A stretch of 64,000 nucleotides of DNA from Balneolaceae bacterium (GTDB taxonomy: Bacteria > Bacteroidota > Rhodothermia > Balneolales > Balneolaceae). Positions 1,718 to 36,718 of this stretch are shown piece by piece. The translations under genes and the position numbers were made by a program. Position 1 is the first letter of the stretch; every line of letters begins with the position of its first letter. The stretch lies in NCBI GenBank assembly GCA_007694095.1, contig RECI01000179.1:1-64000 (forward strand), given 5' to 3'. The notes under the pieces were generated by a model that ran no database searches, was not told where the DNA came from, and worked only from the letters and a program-made list of their open reading frames with translations.

Positions 1718-2620
1718 CTAAATACCGAAACCAATTGTTGCACTCGCAGCAATCACTTTTCCGACATTTATATCTGTTCTTAAATGCACAAATTTCAGAT
1801 TCAGGTTAAGCCCAAGATATGCCCTGGCAAAATTCTCGCTGGTAAAACTGATATCTATTTCTGAATCTTCTTCTTCAGCGGCACCTGAAAATGTGTAATT
1901 CAGGTTCATATTTACATGTTCGTACTGTGCACCACCGTAAATTGTCAGGACTCCAAATTCCTTACTAGCCATACCATTTACCGCAAACGAACTGGTATTC
2001 ATGATTTCACCGATTTTAAAACTCTGGTAAAAGAGTCCAGCGGCAAGATCGACCGGCAAATCATTGAAGTATTGGTTGAGGCCATGTCTTAATCCCAAAC
2101 CAATCATGTTGATATCCGGCACATCGGAATCTGTTGAGAGTGCGAAGAAACGAAAGACGAGCTGCGTATTATAAAAATTTCCGATTGTGATTTGTGGAAC
2201 AGCCAACGGGAAATAATCCATATTGAGCTGACCATTCTGGAACTTATACGATAATCCTTCAGGTCCCTGGACAGTTGCACCCTGGTCTCCGAATATGGTT
2301 GCTGAACTTACCCTTTGCTGAGGATATGGAGCCGGCGGCAGTGCATTAAACGTCTCCTGTGATTCACCAATCAGGGAAGCCATTCCTACGGCATCGATCC
2401 GGATTGTAAATCCATCTTCTATTTTTGCAGAACCCGAAAAACCTGAGTTCAGGTTTGCTCCAAAACCATTTAAAAATGGCTGTAAGTACCCGGTAACGTT
2501 ACCTTCTGACATTTGTTTGATGGCATCCTCAACCTGGTTTTGCGCGTGTACAGAAGAAAAGCAGATCATTACAATGGCAAGAATTAGAGAAGAAGCCTTT
2601 CGTAGAATAGTTTTTTCCAT
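1718..2620 (-). CDS. DUF6588-like secreted/outer-membrane protein
   Basis: A 300-residue protein with a clear signal peptide (hydrophobic 10-24, cleavage near SVHAQ). The mature N-terminus contains the segment YLQPFLNGFGANLNSG, which I associate with DUF6588 proteins of Bacteroidota and Balneolota. The C-terminal two thirds alternate aromatic and hydrophobic residues with Gly (for example GGAQYEHVNMNLNYTF, ARAYLGLNLNLKF), as in an outer-membrane beta-barrel. The last residues ATIGFGI fit a barrel end, though it does not finish with Phe. It precedes the lipoprotein at 1103. The family assignment is from memory of motif style. Confidence 0.65.
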   Translation of the reverse strand: MEKTILRKASSLILAIVMICFSSVHAQNQVEDAIKQMSEGNVTGYLQPFLNGFGANLNSGFSGSAKIEDGFTIRIDAVGMASLIGESQETFNALPPAPYPQQRVSSATIFGDQGATVQGPEGLSYKFQNGQLNMDYFPLAVPQITIGNFYNTQLVFRFFALSTDSDVPDINMIGLGLRHGLNQYFNDLPVDLAAGLFYQSFKIGEIMNTSSFAVNGMASKEFGVLTIYGGAQYEHVNMNLNYTFSGAAEEEDSEIDISFTSENFARAYLGLNLNLKFVHLRTDINVGKVIAASATIGFGI

Positions 2621-3049
2621 AATTTTTAGGTTAGATTTAAGATTAATCTATCTTTAATAGATAATTATATCTCATTATCCAATTTAGATTTTTTCATACT
2701 CATTGTACAGAAGTAATCTGTTAAAGTGCCTTATTTAATCATTATTTTTTAAGGGAATAAATATGAAGCCGGATGAACCTGATAAAGCAGTATAGTTATT
2801 TGAAGGATGATTTTATAATTGCCTCCGGAGAATTCATGCTTAATATTGTGATGGTATCATCTTGTTCTGCCAGGGCACTGAACCGGGTATCAGACAGCTT
2901 ACCTGAAACAGCAGTGAAGTATGGTTTGTCTTTTTAACATGCCCGGAAATGATTGAAATTTGTTTGGGACAAAAAAAGATTGACTTGTAGTGAAATAAAC
3001 CGGAAAATCAGATTCATATTTTTAAACTATTAAATCATTCTGAAGGCTG
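2621..3049. other. Divergent intergenic region
   Basis: This 429-base spacer lies between the leftward DUF6588-like gene and the rightward SGNH hydrolase gene, so it should carry both promoters. It is AT-rich near both gene starts. The only open frames are short (about 33 codons at most) and unsupported. I see no repeat or strong hairpin. Confidence 0.5.
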
Positions 3050-3811
3050 ATGAAACACATTCGTATTTATTTAATTGGTATTTCATTCTCATTGTTATTG
3101 ATCAGCCCTATTTATTCTCAAAACGTAACTACATCGGGTAAATCAGCTGAACAAATTATGCAGGAATATGAGCAATGGTCTGCCACCAGGGATGACTGGG
3201 CTAACCTGAACCGTTACAGAGATGCCAACAAGGCAGCAGGCCTGCCCAAAGAAGGTGAGAGGAGAGTGGTATTTATGGGGAATTCCATTACCGAGGGCTG
3301 GAGTAACCATTACCCGGAGTTTTTCGAGGGGAAGCCCTACATGAATCGTGGAATCAGTGGTCAAACAACACCACAAATGCTGGTACGGTTTCGCAGTGAC
3401 GTAATTGAGCTGAAACCCGAAGTTGTGGTGATCCTTGCCGGCACAAATGATATTGCCGGGAATACCGGCCCGTCAACAATCAATATGATTACAGATAACC
3501 TCTTCTCAATGGCAGAGCTGGCCAGTGTACATGGTATCCGGGTAATTCTCTCTTCGGTTCTTCCGGTATATGATTATCCATGGCGTCCCGGGCTTGAACC
3601 GTCCCGGAAAATTGTTGAACTAAATAATCGTATTCGTTACTACGCAGCAATGAATGGACATTATTACCTGGATTATTTTTCCGAAACGGCCAACAACCGG
3701 AATGGAATGAAAGAAAACCTTGCATATGATGGGGTTCACCCAAATCGGGAAGGATATATTCTGATGTCGCGTATGGCGGAGGAAGCAATCCGGTATGTCT
3801 TGGAGGATTAA
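3050..3811 (+). CDS. Secreted SGNH/GDSL-family hydrolase
   Basis: A 253-residue exported esterase/acylhydrolase of the SGNH superfamily. A signal peptide covers about residues 1-23 (ends IYSQ). The conserved blocks are present: block I GNSITEG with nucleophile Ser79, block II Gly around residue 101 (RGISGQTT), block III GTND at 131-134 with Asn133, and block V DGVHP with Asp227 and His230. Block I has Asn in place of the more usual Asp before Ser. The general type resembles rhamnogalacturonan acetylesterase or PAF-acetylhydrolase-like lipases; the substrate cannot be told from sequence. It stands alone. Confidence 0.88.
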   Translation: MKHIRIYLIGISFSLLLISPIYSQNVTTSGKSAEQIMQEYEQWSATRDDWANLNRYRDANKAAGLPKEGERRVVFMGNSITEGWSNHYPEFFEGKPYMNRGISGQTTPQMLVRFRSDVIELKPEVVVILAGTNDIAGNTGPSTINMITDNLFSMAELASVHGIRVILSSVLPVYDYPWRPGLEPSRKIVELNNRIRYYAAMNGHYYLDYFSETANNRNGMKENLAYDGVHPNREGYILMSRMAEEAIRYVLED

Positions 3812-3997
3812 AGTTCGTAATGGAGCCGAGTGTTTTCCTATGGATGATTCGAAAAAAAATCTTACCGTTTTGTAGCCACTAAGGCTCGAAGACTCAAAGC
3901 AGCACAAAGGTTTTTGGTGTCACCTTCTTCATGGTGTTGTCAGGTTATTGGGGCTAAATTAGGGGCCTATCAAACTGAGTAGTTTTTGAATGCGTGG
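3812..3997. other. Convergent spacer with a low-complexity repeat-like tract
   Basis: Between the SGNH hydrolase (+) and the cupin (-). Bases 3875-3915 read, on the minus strand, like a gene-poor repeat phrase (CTTTGAGTCTTCGAGCC) of the kind scattered in related genomes. I see no second copy in this window and no clear terminator. Confidence 0.3.
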
Positions 3998-4450
3998 CTA
4001 TTTTTTGAGTTTACTTAATACCTCGGGTGATTGAATTCGCCGGTGGATGGTTTCATCGTCGGGAATGCGGGGTTTGTCGCGGTATCGGTCTACAATACAG
4101 ATAAAGCCCAGCGGTTCATTCGTATCGGCAAGAAATTGGTGTATGGTATCAGGCGAAATAAAAACAGTATCGTATAACCCGAGTGGGTGAACCTCATTTT
4201 CAAGAAGAAGTGTACCACCGCCCCGAATAACGATTACACTGTGCGGATGCCGGTGCATTTCGAGTGAAGAATAACCGCCGGGGGCAATCTCAAAATAGCG
4301 CGTCTGGAAATTAAGTTCGGAAATATCATCACCTAAAAGCGTGAACCGGTGAATATCTTTAAAATTCTGGGTGTCTGTTTTGTACTCTTTTTTTTCGACT
4401 CCTGTCCAGCTGTATCCGTCTGCTTTTAAAACTTTTGATTTCTTATTCAT
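3998..4450 (-). CDS. Cupin protein, partner of the RuBisCO-like protein
   Basis: A 150-residue single-domain cupin. Start chosen at ATG 4448-4450 because this ATG overlaps the stop of the upstream RuBisCO-like gene (8-nt overlap, translational coupling); a longer frame from 4492 would lie deep inside that gene. Motif 1 is MHRHPH followed by VIVIRGGG, giving the metal-binding histidines, but the usual motif-1 Glu is not obvious. Motif 2 is PDTIHQF, then LGFICIVDRYRDKPR. In Rhodospirillum rubrum a cupin acts after a RuBisCO-like isomerase as a 1-methylthioxylulose 5-phosphate methylsulfurylase that makes deoxyxylulose 5-phosphate. The same role here is inferred from gene pairing, not shown. Confidence 0.8.
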   Translation of the reverse strand: MNKKSKVLKADGYSWTGVEKKEYKTDTQNFKDIHRFTLLGDDISELNFQTRYFEIAPGGYSSLEMHRHPHSVIVIRGGGTLLLENEVHPLGLYDTVFISPDTIHQFLADTNEPLGFICIVDRYRDKPRIPDDETIHRRIQSPEVLSKLKK

Positions 4451-5555
4451 CTGGTCCGAGCATTTGTTGAAAAGTTGCAGTAGCCTGTTCAATACCTGTG
4501 TCTTGTTTGTAGAGGCTGCCTCCTACCAGGAAAATAGTTTCTTTCCCATATTCTTTGATCCAATCAGGTATGGAAACCAGGTCTATACCGCCAGCCGGCA
4601 CCGGAAAAGAGGGCTTAAAAATACAAAAATCTTTTCTGATCTGTTGGTTCAATGCCTGGCAGGTTTCTTTTGAAAAAGTAAAACGCCCCCCTGCATTTGG
4701 ATAGATGATAGCATCCGCACCAAAAGCTCTCCAGAGTTTACCATAATAGAGCTCCATAGAGAAGCCGGTACTTTTCGGGATAACGTAAGGCCCGGAAAAA
4801 GCAGGATGTGCCATTACCGGCACCTGTGCTGTTTTTGCGATTTCGTGCATTGCTTCAATTCCGGTAAGTTGAGGTGAAATCAATACACCCTCAGCACCGA
4901 GATCAACAGCAAGCTGGAACCGTGAAAAAAGCCTGGCAGGTGAGGTGGTGATATTCGGAAAGTAGCATGTACGCTTGCCAGAATGCTGTTCCCCGTCCCT
5001 GATAGCTTTCAGGCAGTTTGAAACTCTTTCAGTAAAAGCGGCTGTTGACTGATCAGCCAGGCCGTGGTCATCTTTAATGATATCTATTCCTCCACGGGCA
5101 AATTGGCCGGCCCTGCCGGCCAGCTCAACAGCCGATAATCCTACAGGCTTGAGAGCGGTACAGCTTAATGGCCGTGTGTGAACATTGAGCAGTTTTCTGA
5201 TTCCCTGTATCCCGAATGCAGGACCGCTGAGCAGTTCAGCAAAATATTGATCATGTACGTCCAGCAGCTTGATGCCATCAAGAAGGGAAATATTTCCGTA
5301 CAGGACATTTAAAAACTGTGTAGGATCGCCATCAATTATGGAAACAGGGTAGTGGATTACAGCCTTCCAAAGATTCTCATCTATCGGATCAACCTTTTCA
5401 ATGGTTGGCAGTGATGCTGATGCTGAAGCGGGAACCGTTCCGGCCGGCATTTCGACCGACTGTTCAATGCTTATATTTTCTGCAATTTGTTCTGCCTGGC
5501 TGCGGCTATCTGCGGCCAATTGATAGACAATCGTTACATGAGTAGCATTTCCCAT
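4443..5555 (-). CDS. RuBisCO-like protein (form IV)
   Basis: A 370-residue RuBisCO large-subunit homologue that cannot be a carboxylase. The substrate-loop Lys is kept in TALKPVGLS (Lys136), and the carbamylated-Lys motif reads GGIDIIKDDHGLADQ (Lys161, Asp163), with His164 where true RuBisCO has Glu. The C-terminal loop that carries the catalytic loop-6 Lys is absent or replaced (HPAFSGPYV), and the protein is about 100 residues shorter than RuBisCO. RuBisCO-like proteins enolise sugar phosphates; known cases are DK-MTP-1-P enolase, methylthioribulose-1-P isomerase and acid-sugar decarboxylases. It follows purA after 9 nt and overlaps the cupin gene, so it belongs to a purA-RLP-cupin unit. 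Exact substrate unproven. Confidence 0.88.
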   Translation of the reverse strand: MGNATHVTIVYQLAADSRSQAEQIAENISIEQSVEMPAGTVPASASASLPTIEKVDPIDENLWKAVIHYPVSIIDGDPTQFLNVLYGNISLLDGIKLLDVHDQYFAELLSGPAFGIQGIRKLLNVHTRPLSCTALKPVGLSAVELAGRAGQFARGGIDIIKDDHGLADQSTAAFTERVSNCLKAIRDGEQHSGKRTCYFPNITTSPARLFSRFQLAVDLGAEGVLISPQLTGIEAMHEIAKTAQVPVMAHPAFSGPYVIPKSTGFSMELYYGKLWRAFGADAIIYPNAGGRFTFSKETCQALNQQIRKDFCIFKPSFPVPAGGIDLVSIPDWIKEYGKETIFLVGGSLYKQDTGIEQATATFQQMLGPDE

Positions 5556-5564
5556 CCGAAAATA

Positions 5565-6839
5565 CTATATAATGATGGTCTCAGAGCGCTTGGGTCCAGT
5601 GGAAACGATCGTAAACGGAACTCCTGTATACTCTTCAATAAACCGGATATATTCACGCGCTTTTTCGGGGAGATCCTCAAACCTGGAAATATTTCTGGTA
5701 GACTGGTTCCATCCATCAAATGTTTTATAAACCGGTTTAACCTCACTTACTTTTTCTGTATCTAACGGAAACACATTGGTTATGCTTCCATTGAGTTCAT
5801 AGTGGGTGCATACACTGATTGTATCGAAATCATCCAGCACGTCAAGTTTTGTGAGGCTCAATTCATTCATTCCATTCAGTCGAATGGCATATCTCAAGGC
5901 AACCAAATCAAGCCAGCCGCATCTTCTTGGCCGGCCTGTGGTAGCACCGAATTCGTGACCGTTTTTCCTGAGCTTCTCGCCAGTATCGTCATTCAATTCG
6001 GTGGGGAAGGGGCCGTTTCCTACGCGAGTGCAATATGCTTTTGTAATTCCCATGGAATGGGTGATGGCAGTTGGCGGAATGCCGCTGCCGGTACATGCTC
6101 CTCCTGCAGTTGGAGAAGAAGAAGTAACAAAGGGATAAGTTCCGTGATCAACATCAAGCAAACTGCCCTGTGCACCTTCAAGAAGAATAGACTCGCCATT
6201 TTCAAGTGCATGATGCAGAATTTCAGTAGAATTACAGATATAGGGTTTTACTACCCCGATTGCCGGGGCGAGTTCCGCCATCATTTTATCGGCGTCAAGT
6301 TCCGGTTCATCATACACATTTTTTAGTGCGAGATTGATATCAGCCAGGTTTTTTTTGATACTTTTTTCAAGTTTGGCTTCATCAGTAAGATCATTCATCC
6401 GGATGCCGATTCTGGATAATTTACTTACATATGCCGGGCCAATTCCTCGTCCGGTTGTGCCGATGGCATCGGATCCCCGTTTTTTTTCCTTAACATTGTC
6501 AAGAACTTTATGATAGGGAAGAATCAGGTGTGCAGAACTGCTGATAAACAGCCGTTTCTCAAGATTAACACCAAGAGCTTCCACTTCTTTAATTTCATCA
6601 ACCAATGCGATAGGATCTATCACCACACCATTACCGATGATGCACTTCGAGTCGCCATTAAACATTCCTGATGGAATAAGGTGAAGTACAATGGTGGTGT
6701 CATCAAATTTAAGCGTGTGCCCGGCATTTGCTCCACCCTGGTACCGGACTACGTAATCCGCTTCGGAACTCAGCAGGTCTACTATTTTTCCCTTCCCTTC
6801 ATCGCCCCACTGGGCGCCAATAACAATTCTTACAGCCAT
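5565..6839 (-). CDS. purA: Adenylosuccinate synthetase
   Basis: A 424-residue, full-length enzyme joining IMP and aspartate with GTP to give adenylosuccinate, the first committed step to AMP. The N-terminus carries GAQWGDEGKGK (Asp13 catalytic) and NAGHT with catalytic His41. The IMP-site segment GTTGRGIGPAY, the GTYPFVTSS segment and the C-terminal GTP-binding FTIVSTGP are all present. The start is certain because the first strand begins at once. There is no visible Shine-Dalgarno site. A hairpin with eight T residues ends only 8 nt before the ATG, an odd arrangement. The RuBisCO-like gene follows after 9 nt. Confidence 0.97.
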   Translation of the reverse strand: MAVRIVIGAQWGDEGKGKIVDLLSSEADYVVRYQGGANAGHTLKFDDTTIVLHLIPSGMFNGDSKCIIGNGVVIDPIALVDEIKEVEALGVNLEKRLFISSSAHLILPYHKVLDNVKEKKRGSDAIGTTGRGIGPAYVSKLSRIGIRMNDLTDEAKLEKSIKKNLADINLALKNVYDEPELDADKMMAELAPAIGVVKPYICNSTEILHHALENGESILLEGAQGSLLDVDHGTYPFVTSSSPTAGGACTGSGIPPTAITHSMGITKAYCTRVGNGPFPTELNDDTGEKLRKNGHEFGATTGRPRRCGWLDLVALRYAIRLNGMNELSLTKLDVLDDFDTISVCTHYELNGSITNVFPLDTEKVSEVKPVYKTFDGWNQSTRNISRFEDLPEKAREYIRFIEEYTGVPFTIVSTGPKRSETIII

Positions 6840-31289: not shown

Positions 31290-32393
31290 TTATTCTGTAA
31301 GATATTCAGGATTTAATCCTGTCAGCTCATCTTTTATAAATAAGCGGCCTTTGCGCACCAGTTCCCCGTCCAGGTAAACATCAGGGCCGATGCAAACCAG
31401 GTCCCAGTGAATATTGCTATGGTTACCGTTTGCGGCAATCTCATAATCTTTACCGAGTGTGAGGTGATTGGAGCCAAATATTTTTTCATCGAACAGTATA
31501 TCATACATCGGTTTTTCGATAATGGGATTCAGGCCAAAGCTGAACTCTCCAAACCTGCGGGCACCTTCATCGGTATCGAGGATTTCTTCAAGGGCGTTGT
31601 TATCTGATGAGTCAAAATCCGTAACTACTCCGTTTTTTACCTCAAGTTTAACAAACTCGAACGGTTTACCCTGGTAAACAGTTGCAGCATATGTGATAAA
31701 GCCATTCACGGAGTCAAGTATGGGTGAAGAAAACAACTCGCCATCGGGGATATTCCGTTTGCCAAAACATGGAATCCAGTTTTGCCCTTTAACAGAAAAA
31801 GTTATATCGGTACCTTCTCCATTTAAATGAATGATGTCGGTTTTTCGCAGGAGATCTTCCAGCGGTTTCATGGCTTCTGCAAGTTTGTTGTAATCGAGCA
31901 GGCAGGCTTTATAATAGAAATCGGCAAAACGTGTGGTCGGCATTTTGGCGTTCATGGCAAAGGCAGGCGAGGGGTATCTCAAAACAACCCACCGTGTGTG
32001 CTCCACACGCTGTTTAAAATGTACCGGGTTCAAAAAATGTTTGGAATAAGCCGAATTCGCATCTTTAGAAACTGTTGAATTTTCATAAATATTTTCCGCT
32101 GCCCTGATTCCAATAAAGGCATCCATCTGTTTCATCAGTGGCAGCTGGTCAACATTTGCCTGGTTATTCCAAAAATGTTCATCCCCGGTCTCGAGCAGCA
32201 GGCGGTTGGTTTCGGGATCTTCAATTTTGATGAATGGATGTGCTCCGGCCTCCCTGATTTTCTCCGTCAAAGCACGGATTAAACCAATACCATTTAAGCC
32301 AATAAGCTGAAGCATGATATTCTCCCCGGTTTTTAATTCAACACTATGGTTCAACAGCTGAGTGGCAAGCTTTTCGTCCTGTGGTGTATACAT
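31290..32393 (-). CDS. M29-family aminopeptidase
   Basis: A 367-residue cytosolic metallo-aminopeptidase of the thermophilic-aminopeptidase family (M29), which uses two metal ions. Family landmarks are present: PDGELFSSP and GEFSFGLNP with the metal-binding Glu residues, then FGSNHLTLG and NHSNIHWDLVC, which supplies the His-x-Asp ligands. Length is normal (about 370-410). It lies 3 nt after an ABC ATPase gene and is co-transcribed with it; the link is not obvious. Confidence 0.92.
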   Translation of the reverse strand: MYTPQDEKLATQLLNHSVELKTGENIMLQLIGLNGIGLIRALTEKIREAGAHPFIKIEDPETNRLLLETGDEHFWNNQANVDQLPLMKQMDAFIGIRAAENIYENSTVSKDANSAYSKHFLNPVHFKQRVEHTRWVVLRYPSPAFAMNAKMPTTRFADFYYKACLLDYNKLAEAMKPLEDLLRKTDIIHLNGEGTDITFSVKGQNWIPCFGKRNIPDGELFSSPILDSVNGFITYAATVYQGKPFEFVKLEVKNGVVTDFDSSDNNALEEILDTDEGARRFGEFSFGLNPIIEKPMYDILFDEKIFGSNHLTLGKDYEIAANGNHSNIHWDLVCIGPDVYLDGELVRKGRLFIKDELTGLNPEYLTE

Positions 32394-32396
32394 AAA

Positions 32397-33014
32397 TTAT
32401 ATCTTGTTCAATGCTATGACCTGGTCGCACAGGTCGAGTTCGTGTTTCAGGTTTGAGGCGATGAAAATCATGGTATCTCGCGATCGGTACCGTTCAACAA
32501 TATTCTCAACAGATTTTTTCCCTTTTTGGTCGAGGTTCGAGCCCGGTTCGTCTAACATTAAAATTTGTGGCCTGTGAACCAGGGCAGCTGCCAGTTTTGC
32601 CCGTTGCTGCTGCCCGGTTGAAAGAGAACCGAACTGTGAATGAGCAAAGGATGAGGCATCCAGCGAAATTAACAACTCCTCAAGATTTTCAGTATCTGTT
32701 TTGTTCCTTAGTTTCATGATGAATTCAAGGTTCTCAAGAACGGTTAATTCTTCGTATAGCTGTACATAAGGAGCCAAATAACCGAGTTTTTTTTTGAATT
32801 CTTCCCGATTCCATTTTTGTTCGTTGATCTTCCAGGTAACTGATCCTGATGTTGGTTTCACCAGGCCGGCGAGGCATTTTAAGAGTGTAGATTTTCCCGA
32901 TCCGTTTTCACCCGCAATACCAATTACAGGGGCTTCTGACTTGAATGAAAGCCCGCTGAAAACAAGGTTATTGCCGTAGCGTTTGGATAACGAATGTGCA
33001 TAAAGAGAAATCAT
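32397..33014 (-). CDS. ABC transporter ATP-binding protein
   Basis: A 205-residue single ATPase domain from ATG 33012-33014, preferred to a TTG start at 33041 because the domain starts immediately (MISLYAHSLSKRYG). Walker A is GENGSGKST, the signature is SLSTGQQQR, and Walker B is ILMLDEPGSNLD. Short single-domain ATPases of this type include CcmA-like haem exporters. No permease gene is adjacent, so the partner must be elsewhere. It overlaps nothing and lies 3 nt before the M29 peptidase. Confidence 0.88.
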   Translation of the reverse strand: MISLYAHSLSKRYGNNLVFSGLSFKSEAPVIGIAGENGSGKSTLLKCLAGLVKPTSGSVTWKINEQKWNREEFKKKLGYLAPYVQLYEELTVLENLEFIMKLRNKTDTENLEELLISLDASSFAHSQFGSLSTGQQQRAKLAAALVHRPQILMLDEPGSNLDQKGKKSVENIVERYRSRDTMIFIASNLKHELDLCDQVIALNKI

Positions 33015-33153
33015 CTCAAAAGGTAGCCCTGGTGCGATCAAAAAAAAAGAAAATTTATAATGGAACTCAATTTTCTAAGATAATCGAAAAGGATTAACTT
33101 CCTCTTACTCATTCTCATATATCATCAATTCGTAACTATTCAGAATTTACAAT

Positions 33154-35151
33154 ATGGATCACATAACAGGTGACATAACCTCCGAATTCATTAATAAACT
33201 ATCTTCCGGAAAAGAATGGTACACCACCAAAGAGCTTCTTGCTGCCGGATTACCAGTATTTATAGTAGAAAGAATTCGCCAGGAACTTGAACAGAATTTA
33301 GCCCAAAGTCTGTTACCTCCCGAAACAATCTGGGCTGATCTAGAGAGCAGTACATCAAAAGAGGCATGGGATAGGTATATCATTGCCATTCAAAATGAAG
33401 TGATAGTTCCTGCTTCATATGTTGCTGAAATGGTTGAAGATGCTGTTGCCTTTAATTTAAAACTTGCAGTACAGCCCAGGAAAGCAGTTTTAGAAATTTT
33501 GTTTAGAGATGACACGATAGTTGATCAGACGACTATAGAGGAGAGGAGTTCCGTAATTTTGGTAAATGGTCACCTTGCAAATGCGCTTGGCAGGTATCTT
33601 CAAAAAAAGGAAAAAAAAGAGATCACAAAAGAACATGCAGGGGAAGTCATAAAAAAAATTGATGACAAACTGGTTGAAGGATACCACCCGCTAAACTGGA
33701 AAGACCTGCTTGCGCCAATATTTGCAATTTCGGGTGGTTCAGCATCACCCGAATTGATTGCGGAATTTTTTACGGACAAGGGAAAGCCGGGAATAGCAGA
33801 AGCGTTCAGGAAACTCGATAATAACATCTCTAATTCTGAATTTGTCGAGATCGTCAGTTCTGCAGATGTACTTGAAATACGGGACGACCTGGAAGAATTA
33901 TCTGAATCCCCGGAACAGCACGAGGAAGAATCCATTTCAGACAATGAAGAAAAGATTGCCGGGGAGAAAACTGATATGGAAAGTGATGAATCGTTAATAA
34001 CCGGTACTGATGAAGCAAAGATTGCTGTTGAAGAGCCTGAAGATAAAAACAGGTTTAAAACAGAAAACACCCCGGAGGATAAAGAGATGGGATTGAATGA
34101 TTTGTTTAGTATTGGGGAAGAAGAAAAAGAAGAATACCAGGAAGACGAAACAGATATCGAATTTGATACATCATTTGATTTTACACTCGAAGAGGCAGAA
34201 GACGAAGAGGAAGTTGGTACTTTTCCCAAAAAGTTTATCAAAGAAGAATCAGATGAAGAAATTGAGAATATTAACCTGAGATATGACCAGGAATTAGATG
34301 AGGAGAAAGTTGATACGGATCCTGAGGAGACGCCAGAGACCGGAAATGAAGTATGGCATGATGTGGAAGAAGAGGTAATAAGCGAAGAAGATGAAGGTGA
34401 CGGGGAAGAAACACTGTTAAGCCGTTTTGTATTTGATGACCCTGAGATGAAAGGCGAATTCTCTGAACCGGCGAAAGAAAAAAAACCGCGTACTATTTAT
34501 GATGAGTTAAACCTTATCAGAGAAGATAAGAAACCGGGTACGATTAAAAGCCTTTTTGATGACCTTGAAGAAGAAGAATCACAACCGTTTGCGACAGATA
34601 AAACGGATGATGAAGACGCTGTAAAGAAATACACTGAACCGGAACCGGTTGCAGAACAATCAACTGAATTACCCGAAGTAGAGCAGGAAGGAATACTGGA
34701 AGAAGATTCCGATGAACTCAAATCAGCAGAAACACATTCAGATGTGCCGATGTGGAAATCATTTCTTGACAGGGGGGATGTTGTTCATGATGATACCCCT
34801 TTTGCGCTTGATGACAGTGAAGATGATGAAGATTTACTGGATGAAGACGGATTTATTGAAACACCGATTTATGATTTTACCGAAGATGATGAGCCATTTA
34901 AGGAGGCTTTTGGAAATTTATCAAACTGGCTGGCAGATGAGCGTGAGCGGTTTATTGATGAAATTTTTGGCGGATCAGAAACAGCATATGATATTGCACT
35001 GGCAGAAATTATCAACTATGACAACTGGAAACATGCATCCAGATTTCTTGAGCGTGAAATTTTCTCAAGAAACAGGATTGATCTATACAGCGAAGTAGCG
35101 GTCGATTTTACTGACAGGCTTCACACCTATTTTCTTGAGTATAAATCGTAA
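33154..35151 (+). CDS. Very acidic three-part protein, function unknown
   Basis: A 665-residue protein that I do not recognise. Residues 1-240 look like an ordered, mostly helical domain ([37 protein letters not shown]). Residues about 245-590 are low-complexity and dominated by Glu, Asp and Ser (runs such as EEEEKEEY and [14 protein letters not shown]), so they are probably disordered and strongly negative. Residues about 595-665 form a second compact domain ([38 protein letters not shown]). There is no signal peptide or membrane segment, so it is cytosolic. Not obviously broken. It precedes the acyl-CoA carboxylase gene by 16 nt and may be co-transcribed with it. Confidence 0.85.
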
Positions 35152-35167
35152 ATCATTAATTGGCATG

Positions 35168-36718
35168 ATGTCTGAAAACGAACAAACGAAAAGGCTCAAC
35201 AAATTACGAGAAGAAGCAAAAAAAGGCGGGGGAGAAAAAAGAATTGAGGCACAGCATAAAAAAGGGAAACTCACCGCCCGGGAGAGGATAGAGATTTTGA
35301 CGGACAGGGGAAGCTTCCAGGAGATTGATGCATTTGTAACCCACAGGAGTTCTGCATTTGGATTGGATAAACAACAGATTTTGGGGGATGGCGTTGTAAC
35401 CGGATTTGCTAAAATTGAAGGTCGCCCCGTTTACCTGTTCAGCCAGGATTTTACGGTATTCGGTGGTTCACTCTCTGAGACCCATGCTGAAAAGATATGT
35501 AAAATCATGGACCTGGCACTCAAGAATGGAGTGCCGGTGATTGGGCTTAACGATTCCGGCGGTGCACGAATCCAGGAAGGAGTGAGTTCACTTGGTGGAT
35601 ACGCAGAAGTATTCTGGCGAAATTCGATGACTTCAGGAGTAGTGCCACAAATTTCAGCGGTAATGGGTCCGTGTGCAGGAGGTGCGGTTTACAGCCCGGC
35701 CCTTACCGATTTTATCTATATGGTAAAGGGAACCAGTTACATGTTTGTGACCGGGCCAAACGTGGTTAAAACGGTTACTCATGAAGATGTTACCTCCGAA
35801 GAACTAGGCGGAGCCGATGCGCATGGTATTAAATCCGGTGTGGCCCATTTTGCCACAGAAAATGATGCAGACTGCCTGCAAAACATCCGTAAACTTATCA
35901 CATATATACCTCAAAATTGTGAAGAACGGGTGCCGGTGCAGAAGGCGAAAGAGCCGTCACCATCAAAAGCTGCCCGTCTTGATGAGTTGATTCCACTCAA
36001 TCCGAATAAACCCTACGATATAAAGGATGTAATTGAGGGTGTGATTGATGAAGGCTCATTTTATGAAGTTCACAAGCAATATGCTGATAATATTGTTGTC
36101 GGGTTTGCACGTCTTGCAGGGCGAACAGTAGGAATCGTTGCAAACCAGCCGCTCTCACTGGCCGGGGTACTCGATATCAGTGCGTCTCTGAAAGGAGCCC
36201 GTTTTGTCCGTTTTTGCGATGCCTTTAACATTCCACTTTTAGTTTTTGAAGATGTGCCGGGCTTTTTACCGGGTACCGACCAGGAGTGGGGGGGTATTAT
36301 CAAACACGGTGCAAAACTGCTGTATGCGTTTTGCGAGGCTACTGTACCAAAAATGACTGTCATCACCCGGAAAGCATATGGGGGTGCTTATGATGTAATG
36401 AATTCCAAACACATTCGCGCCGACTATAACGTGGCCTGGCCAACCGCCGAAATTGCTGTAATGGGAACCAAAGGGGCGGTAGAAATTATTTTCAGGAAAG
36501 AGATTGCCGCGGCTGAAAACCCCGGGAATAAACAAAAAGAATTGGAAAAACGGTACAATGAGGAATTTGCCCATCCATATAAAGCAGCAGCCCGTGGATT
36601 TATTGATGATGTGATTTTGCCTTCCGAAACACGTGAAAAACTAATCCGCGCCTTTGAACTCTGTGAAAACAAGGTAGACCGCGTGCCCAGGAGAAAGCAT
36701 GATAATTTACCGTTATGA
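35168..36718 (+). CDS. Acyl-CoA carboxylase, carboxyltransferase beta subunit
   Basis: A 516-residue carboxyltransferase of the propionyl-/methylmalonyl-CoA family. The start is placed at ATG 35168 (or 35165), after the stop of the upstream gene; an in-frame start at 35135 would overlap it. Landmarks: [19 protein letters not shown] in the N-terminal oxyanion-hole region, [17 protein letters not shown], and the C-terminal half with [15 protein letters not shown] and [16 protein letters not shown]. It transfers carboxybiotin to propionyl- or acetyl-CoA. Biotin carboxylase and biotin-carrier genes are not in this window. Full length. Confidence 0.95.

Follow-up and report, generated by a model that had tools for sequence, protein, structure and literature searches.

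A conserved gene of no known family

The window analysed here, a 64,000 bp stretch of a Balneolaceae bacterium genome (contig RECI01000179.1, positions 1 to 64,000), carries a long open reading frame for an acidic protein just upstream of an acyl-CoA carboxylase gene, and the locus raises the question of what this protein is and what it might do. A preliminary description, made from the sequence alone, had placed the frame at 33154–35151 and given it 665 residues, and both are correct. The gene, on the forward strand, is present once in its own genome (4.56 Mb in 324 contigs was searched), and its frame is kept in 54 of 58 related genomes, for which reason we take it to be real and translated. 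Its overall dN/dS, about 0.25 and 0.20 relative to its two nearest homologues, L084 and L085, respectively, likewise speaks for a translated frame. Ten alignment columns, among them W60, P86, P108, W182, F206, F605, W625, F652 and D654, are invariant across 38 homologues. One homologue (L065, at about 27749–29518 of contig 46 of genome G015) is interrupted by a TAA in frame that leaves pieces of 427 and 164 residues, perhaps because the sequencing erred or because the copy has decayed.

AlphaFold2 predictions were made for the full protein and for its N-terminal part alone. The full-protein model (29-sequence alignment) has a pLDDT of ~90 for residues 1–238 and ~88 for residues 580–663, and below 50 across nearly all of residues 243–574, so the compact, ordered ends and the long disordered middle that had been anticipated are indeed predicted; the C-terminal ordered part exists as described, but it begins near residue 580 rather than 595. 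The three parts, here called head, linker and tail, differ in dN: relative to L084 and L085, the values for the head are 0.32 and 0.28, those for the linker rise to 0.46 and 0.59 and those for the tail fall to 0.03 and 0.08, and dS is above 1 in all three alike. The linker is thus the least conserved and the tail the most constrained part of the protein, as had been surmised for the C-terminal domain. Inspection of the N-terminus by eye found no signal sequence, in agreement with the reported lack of an export signal. As read from its sequence and predicted structure, the product of 33154–35151 is a real, selected cytoplasmic protein whose two ends are ordered and whose middle, rich in Asp and Glu, is disordered.

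Distribution and library searches

The gene had been thought probably lineage-specific, and this does not hold. With a whole-protein profile built from 38 homologues, matches were obtained in 213 of the 244 class genomes searched (145 of the 162 of good quality), and a tail-only profile matches 213 of 394 genomes of the phylum. A more diverse tail profile, some of whose rows come from hits within the very phylum against which it was then run, matches 272 of 385 sampled phylum genomes (~70%; 271 of the 363 of good quality), a sample that overlaps with the 394. The head profile matches 55 of 148 genomes. These counts, with the 54 of 58 close relatives, rule out a lineage-specific orphan; the 665-residue protein represents a conserved family and not a local oddity. 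It is missing from every genome of one family, f8, among those listed in the class and phylum profile searches. PMC1887533 describes three hypothetical proteins common to Bacteroidetes and Chlorobi, one of which, PG0649 (194 residues), is missing in Salinibacter ruber; this may be connected with the absence from f8 or may be a separate matter.

Named families have little to say about the protein. No Pfam or NCBIfam family passed its cut-off with the window protein or with any of ten distant members, as expected from its description as belonging to no known family; no Pfam family is common to the 38 members, the commonest weak match being found in four of them. Comparison of PDB sequences with the full, head and tail profiles gave no convincing match, nor does a Pfam or NCBIfam family match either end. 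The viral fold library gave no match and PHROG a single weak one that is confined to the linker. A plasmid or phage gene was considered and rejected, there being no plasmid match and no viral contig match. PADLOC defence models gave no match at E 0.01 with three members, and we think a defence origin unlikely, the class-wide single-copy spread (213/244) being unlike that of defence genes. Searches of an open-licence library of papers listed nothing on the protein.

The N-terminal head

The head (residues 1–240; 33154–33873, forward strand) was modelled alone with a pLDDT of 90.6 and a pTM of 0.83. The model consists of six helix-short strand-helix units, arranged as three lobes of two units each, and its three strand pairs are compatible with the topology of EF-hand lobes. 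A Foldseek search with the head found no match at E 0.001 (best E 0.11), and 47 of the best 50 rows are EF-hand proteins, as their titles read. VIA-align 2 placed EF-hand lobes on each of the three parts separately, with Z 5.0 and rmsd 2.7–2.9 over 67–70 residues for residues 1–103, Z 4.7–4.9 for residues 105–177, and Z 5.4 and rmsd 2.7 over 59 residues for residues 178 to about 236–242; rmsd over all these placements is mostly 2.6 to 3.6, and the program itself rates a Z of ~5 as unremarkable, above all for helical models.

The sequence carries no corresponding signature. None of the 38 members matches any EF-hand Pfam family at E 1, EF-hand_7 has no match in the bacterium's own genome at E 0.01, and profile comparison of calmodulin with the head gave no convincing similarity. 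Lobe-to-lobe profile comparison found no convincing repeat among the three lobes, and the one lobe pair for which shuffled controls were run scored no better than they did. In none of the six loops are acidic residues at positions 1, 3 and 5 conserved together among 29 sequences, and a calcium sensor was rejected because the loops are without the calcium-ligand pattern. The head could also be some other helical fold that merely resembles EF-hand lobes and has a different activity, in which case the peptide-binding role considered below would be wrong. The weak scores and the missing signature are consistent with this, but each of the three lobes picks out EF-hand lobes and non-EF-hand proteins account for only 3 of the best 50 Foldseek rows, and we consider such a fold unlikely. 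Because Z values of ~5 are common for helical models, we describe the modelled head as EF-hand-like without assigning it to the EF-hand superfamily.

The linker and its tryptophan motif

The linker (residues 241–579; 33874–34890, forward strand) is delimited by its pLDDT below 50, its composition and its variable length and charge in the family. The Glu/Asp-rich middle that had been described is certainly present in the window protein, where Asp and Glu make up 37% of residues 246–590, with a net charge of -99; in the comparison of family members its linker counts 344 residues at a net charge of -100. This length and charge are also what would favour the idea that the acidic middle is itself the working part, acting as a nucleic-acid or histone mimic or as a charge-based binder. 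But among members with both head and tail the linker ranges from 37 to 476 residues in length and from +3 to -175 in net charge, and it is nearly neutral in L075, L078, L132 and L133 (-3, -5, -5 and +3, respectively). Acidity is strongest in Balneolales and is not a property of the family; acid-rich linkers would fit the mainly saline habitats of Balneolaceae. The linker being in addition the part that drifts most, we regard a working acidic middle as very improbable. The earlier comparison with histone-like mimics is weakened accordingly, since the acidity on which it was based is not shared by the family; the broader notion of a scaffold or adaptor survives on other grounds (below).

One short element of the linker is retained while the rest of the tether drifts. 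A linear motif at residues 530–541 (34741–34776, forward strand), modelled as a short helix at 535–538, has the form [VIL]P[MIL]W[KRQ]xF (VPMW[KRQ]xFL) and is conserved in alignments of most Balneolales; some Balneolales lack it or have it in altered form, as do most members found in other groups. One member from outside the order (L076) has two VPxW copies in its linker, at residues 281 and 321. A search of the bacterium's own genome with the motif pattern found no second acidic-linker gene that carries it. The idea that the motif is common to other proteins of this genome was rejected, as the eight pattern matches are the window gene, one AMP-ligase-like enzyme (identified by reading) and short frames. 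The EF-hand-like lobes could plausibly take the helix of the motif as a ligand.

The C-terminal tail

The tail (residues 580–665; 34891–35148, forward strand) is predicted to form five helices. A single VIA row covers it, influenza M1 at Z 4.4, to which we give no weight. Many genomes outside the class retain head, linker and tail. In all seven Bacteroidia-like loci that were fetched the N-terminal domain is gone, and what remains is the tail, preceded by a linker and a short N-terminal stretch; "Bacteroidia-like" is here a label given by eye from gene content (for example the gldM- and gldN-like neighbours in L120), and the reading frames of fetched loci were called by longest frame, so that some starts, as in L120, are too early. 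That the tail persists where the head has been lost or replaced points to a binding partner of the tail that the phylum has in common.

Gene neighbourhood

Upstream of the gene, and 112 bases from its start, lies a divergent ABC-type ATPase gene (32397–33041, reverse strand; Pfam ABC_tran, E 2.8e-30), which is followed by an M29 metallopeptidase gene (31290–32393, reverse strand; Pfam PF02073, with conserved synteny). The ATPase gene is adjacent and divergent in 42 of the 49 class loci that have an upstream neighbour (this and the following class count leave out L067, L071 and L073, which have no recognised target, and loci cut off on the side concerned). We note that it has no adjacent membrane partner and that its divergence is retained in nearly all Balneolales loci.

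Sixteen bases downstream is the acyl-CoA carboxylase gene that had been noticed next door, a PccB-like carboxyltransferase gene (35168–36718, forward strand) assigned by library matches. In 38 of 46 class loci, one of which (L074) lies outside the order, a PccB-like gene follows on the same strand at a median distance of 17 bases, and this arrangement is the reason for asking whether the protein is an accessory or regulatory subunit of the carboxylase. The gene persists, however, where the link is lost: PccB does not adjoin it in L039, L044, L046 and L060, all of one family, nor in most class loci outside the order, and PccB is not its neighbour in the loci retrieved from other classes. The 665-residue sequence also lacks the biotinylation motif (MKM), and a carboxylase subunit appears to us a decidedly poor prospect.

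Outside the class a different neighbour prevails. In 9 of 13 head-and-tail loci there obgE is directly downstream on the same strand, and six of the nine pairs overlap or are separated by 2 bases or fewer, an arrangement that would suit a partner of the GTPase Obg in growth or ribosome assembly, kept in all clades and co-transcribed with obgE only in some. But the other four of the 13 loci have an SbcC-like gene in this position (one of them, L114, whose frame the longest-frame calling missed, was placed by its tail-profile match), thymidine kinase faces the tail-only gene in every one of the seven Bacteroidia-like loci, and Balneolales have PccB and no obgE link that we have seen; an Obg factor is therefore rather improbable, if a little less so than a carboxylase subunit. 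Pfam confirms the Obg, SbcC-like, thymidine kinase, kdo-transferase and 1200-residue TPR neighbours, in one example each. The TPR protein (~1200 residues) is encoded before the head-and-tail gene in operons of the obgE type (L115, at 2599–6201, and L129–L133) and is thus a conserved neighbour in its own right. Neighbours thus change by clade and none is common to all, so context alone names no pathway.

A possible two-ended adaptor

The reading we favour, and hold tentatively, is that the 665-residue protein is a cytoplasmic two-ended adaptor. Apo-calmodulin and myosin light-chain lobes bind amphipathic helical peptides, and by analogy the head, with its three EF-hand-like lobes and no calcium sites, might bind such peptides too. 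The linker would act as a flexible tether between head and tail, the VPMW[KRQ]xFL helix of Balneolales might be held by lobes of the same protein or by those of a partner, and the tail would dock on a partner common to bacteria of Bacteroidota. The analysis shows the conservation, the spread of the tail through the phylum, the lack of calcium-ligand patterns and, by prediction, the architecture; peptide binding, the identity of the partners and the adaptor role itself are all things that we infer. Full-length conservation, a tail that is able to stand without the head, strong selection on the tail, the separate match of each of the three lobes to EF-hand lobes, the predominance of EF-hand proteins among the best Foldseek rows, the fitting strand pairs and a tryptophan motif retained in a drifting tether argue for an adaptor; the best Foldseek E of 0.11, the Z of ~5, the lack of an EF-hand sequence signature or of a repeat among the lobes, a motif that some Balneolales and most other members lack or have altered, and a neighbour turnover that gives no single partner argue against it.

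A more ambitious version, which we put forward as speculation and think less probable than the adaptor role alone, would make the protein an ancestral, unnamed housekeeping factor of Bacteroidota and their allies, in which a tether connects a calcium-free, calmodulin-like peptide grabber with a docking domain found throughout the phylum. Such a factor, translationally coupled to obgE in other lineages, would link growth control to other machinery, and in Bacteroidia-like forms the tail would have been retained and the head exchanged for a short helical segment.

Whatever its role, the tail is found in ~70% of sampled phylum genomes, in single copy and under strong selection, and yet matches no Pfam or NCBIfam family. 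If the head is indeed a calcium-free EF-hand-like domain in the bacterial cytoplasm, the fold would be put to an unusual use there. Named close relatives, Rhodohalobacter and Fodinibius, exist as isolates, and the tail reaches Bacteroidia-like genomes, a group with tractable members.

Comparison with known systems

The 665-residue gene resembles those of acyl-CoA carboxylase subunits in position, since it sits immediately before a PccB-like gene, but its protein has no carboxylase-related domain and in other clades the gene occurs without PccB. Among adaptor proteins, PopZ of Caulobacter comes to mind, a cytoplasmic hub protein with a folded helical end and an acidic disordered middle, features that the 665-residue protein appears to share; it differs from PopZ in that both of its ends are predicted to be folded and the acidity of its middle is not conserved. 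The closest structural likeness of the modelled head is to EF-hand proteins such as calmodulin, troponin C, myosin light chains, the calcium domains of CDPKs and a calcium-binding protein of Streptomyces coelicolor, all of them built from lobes of two helix-loop-helix units whose loops each contain a short strand. Unlike these, the head is without DxDxDG calcium loops and without a match to EF-hand HMMs, and here three such lobes are predicted to form one domain, which a disordered tether connects to an unrelated tail.
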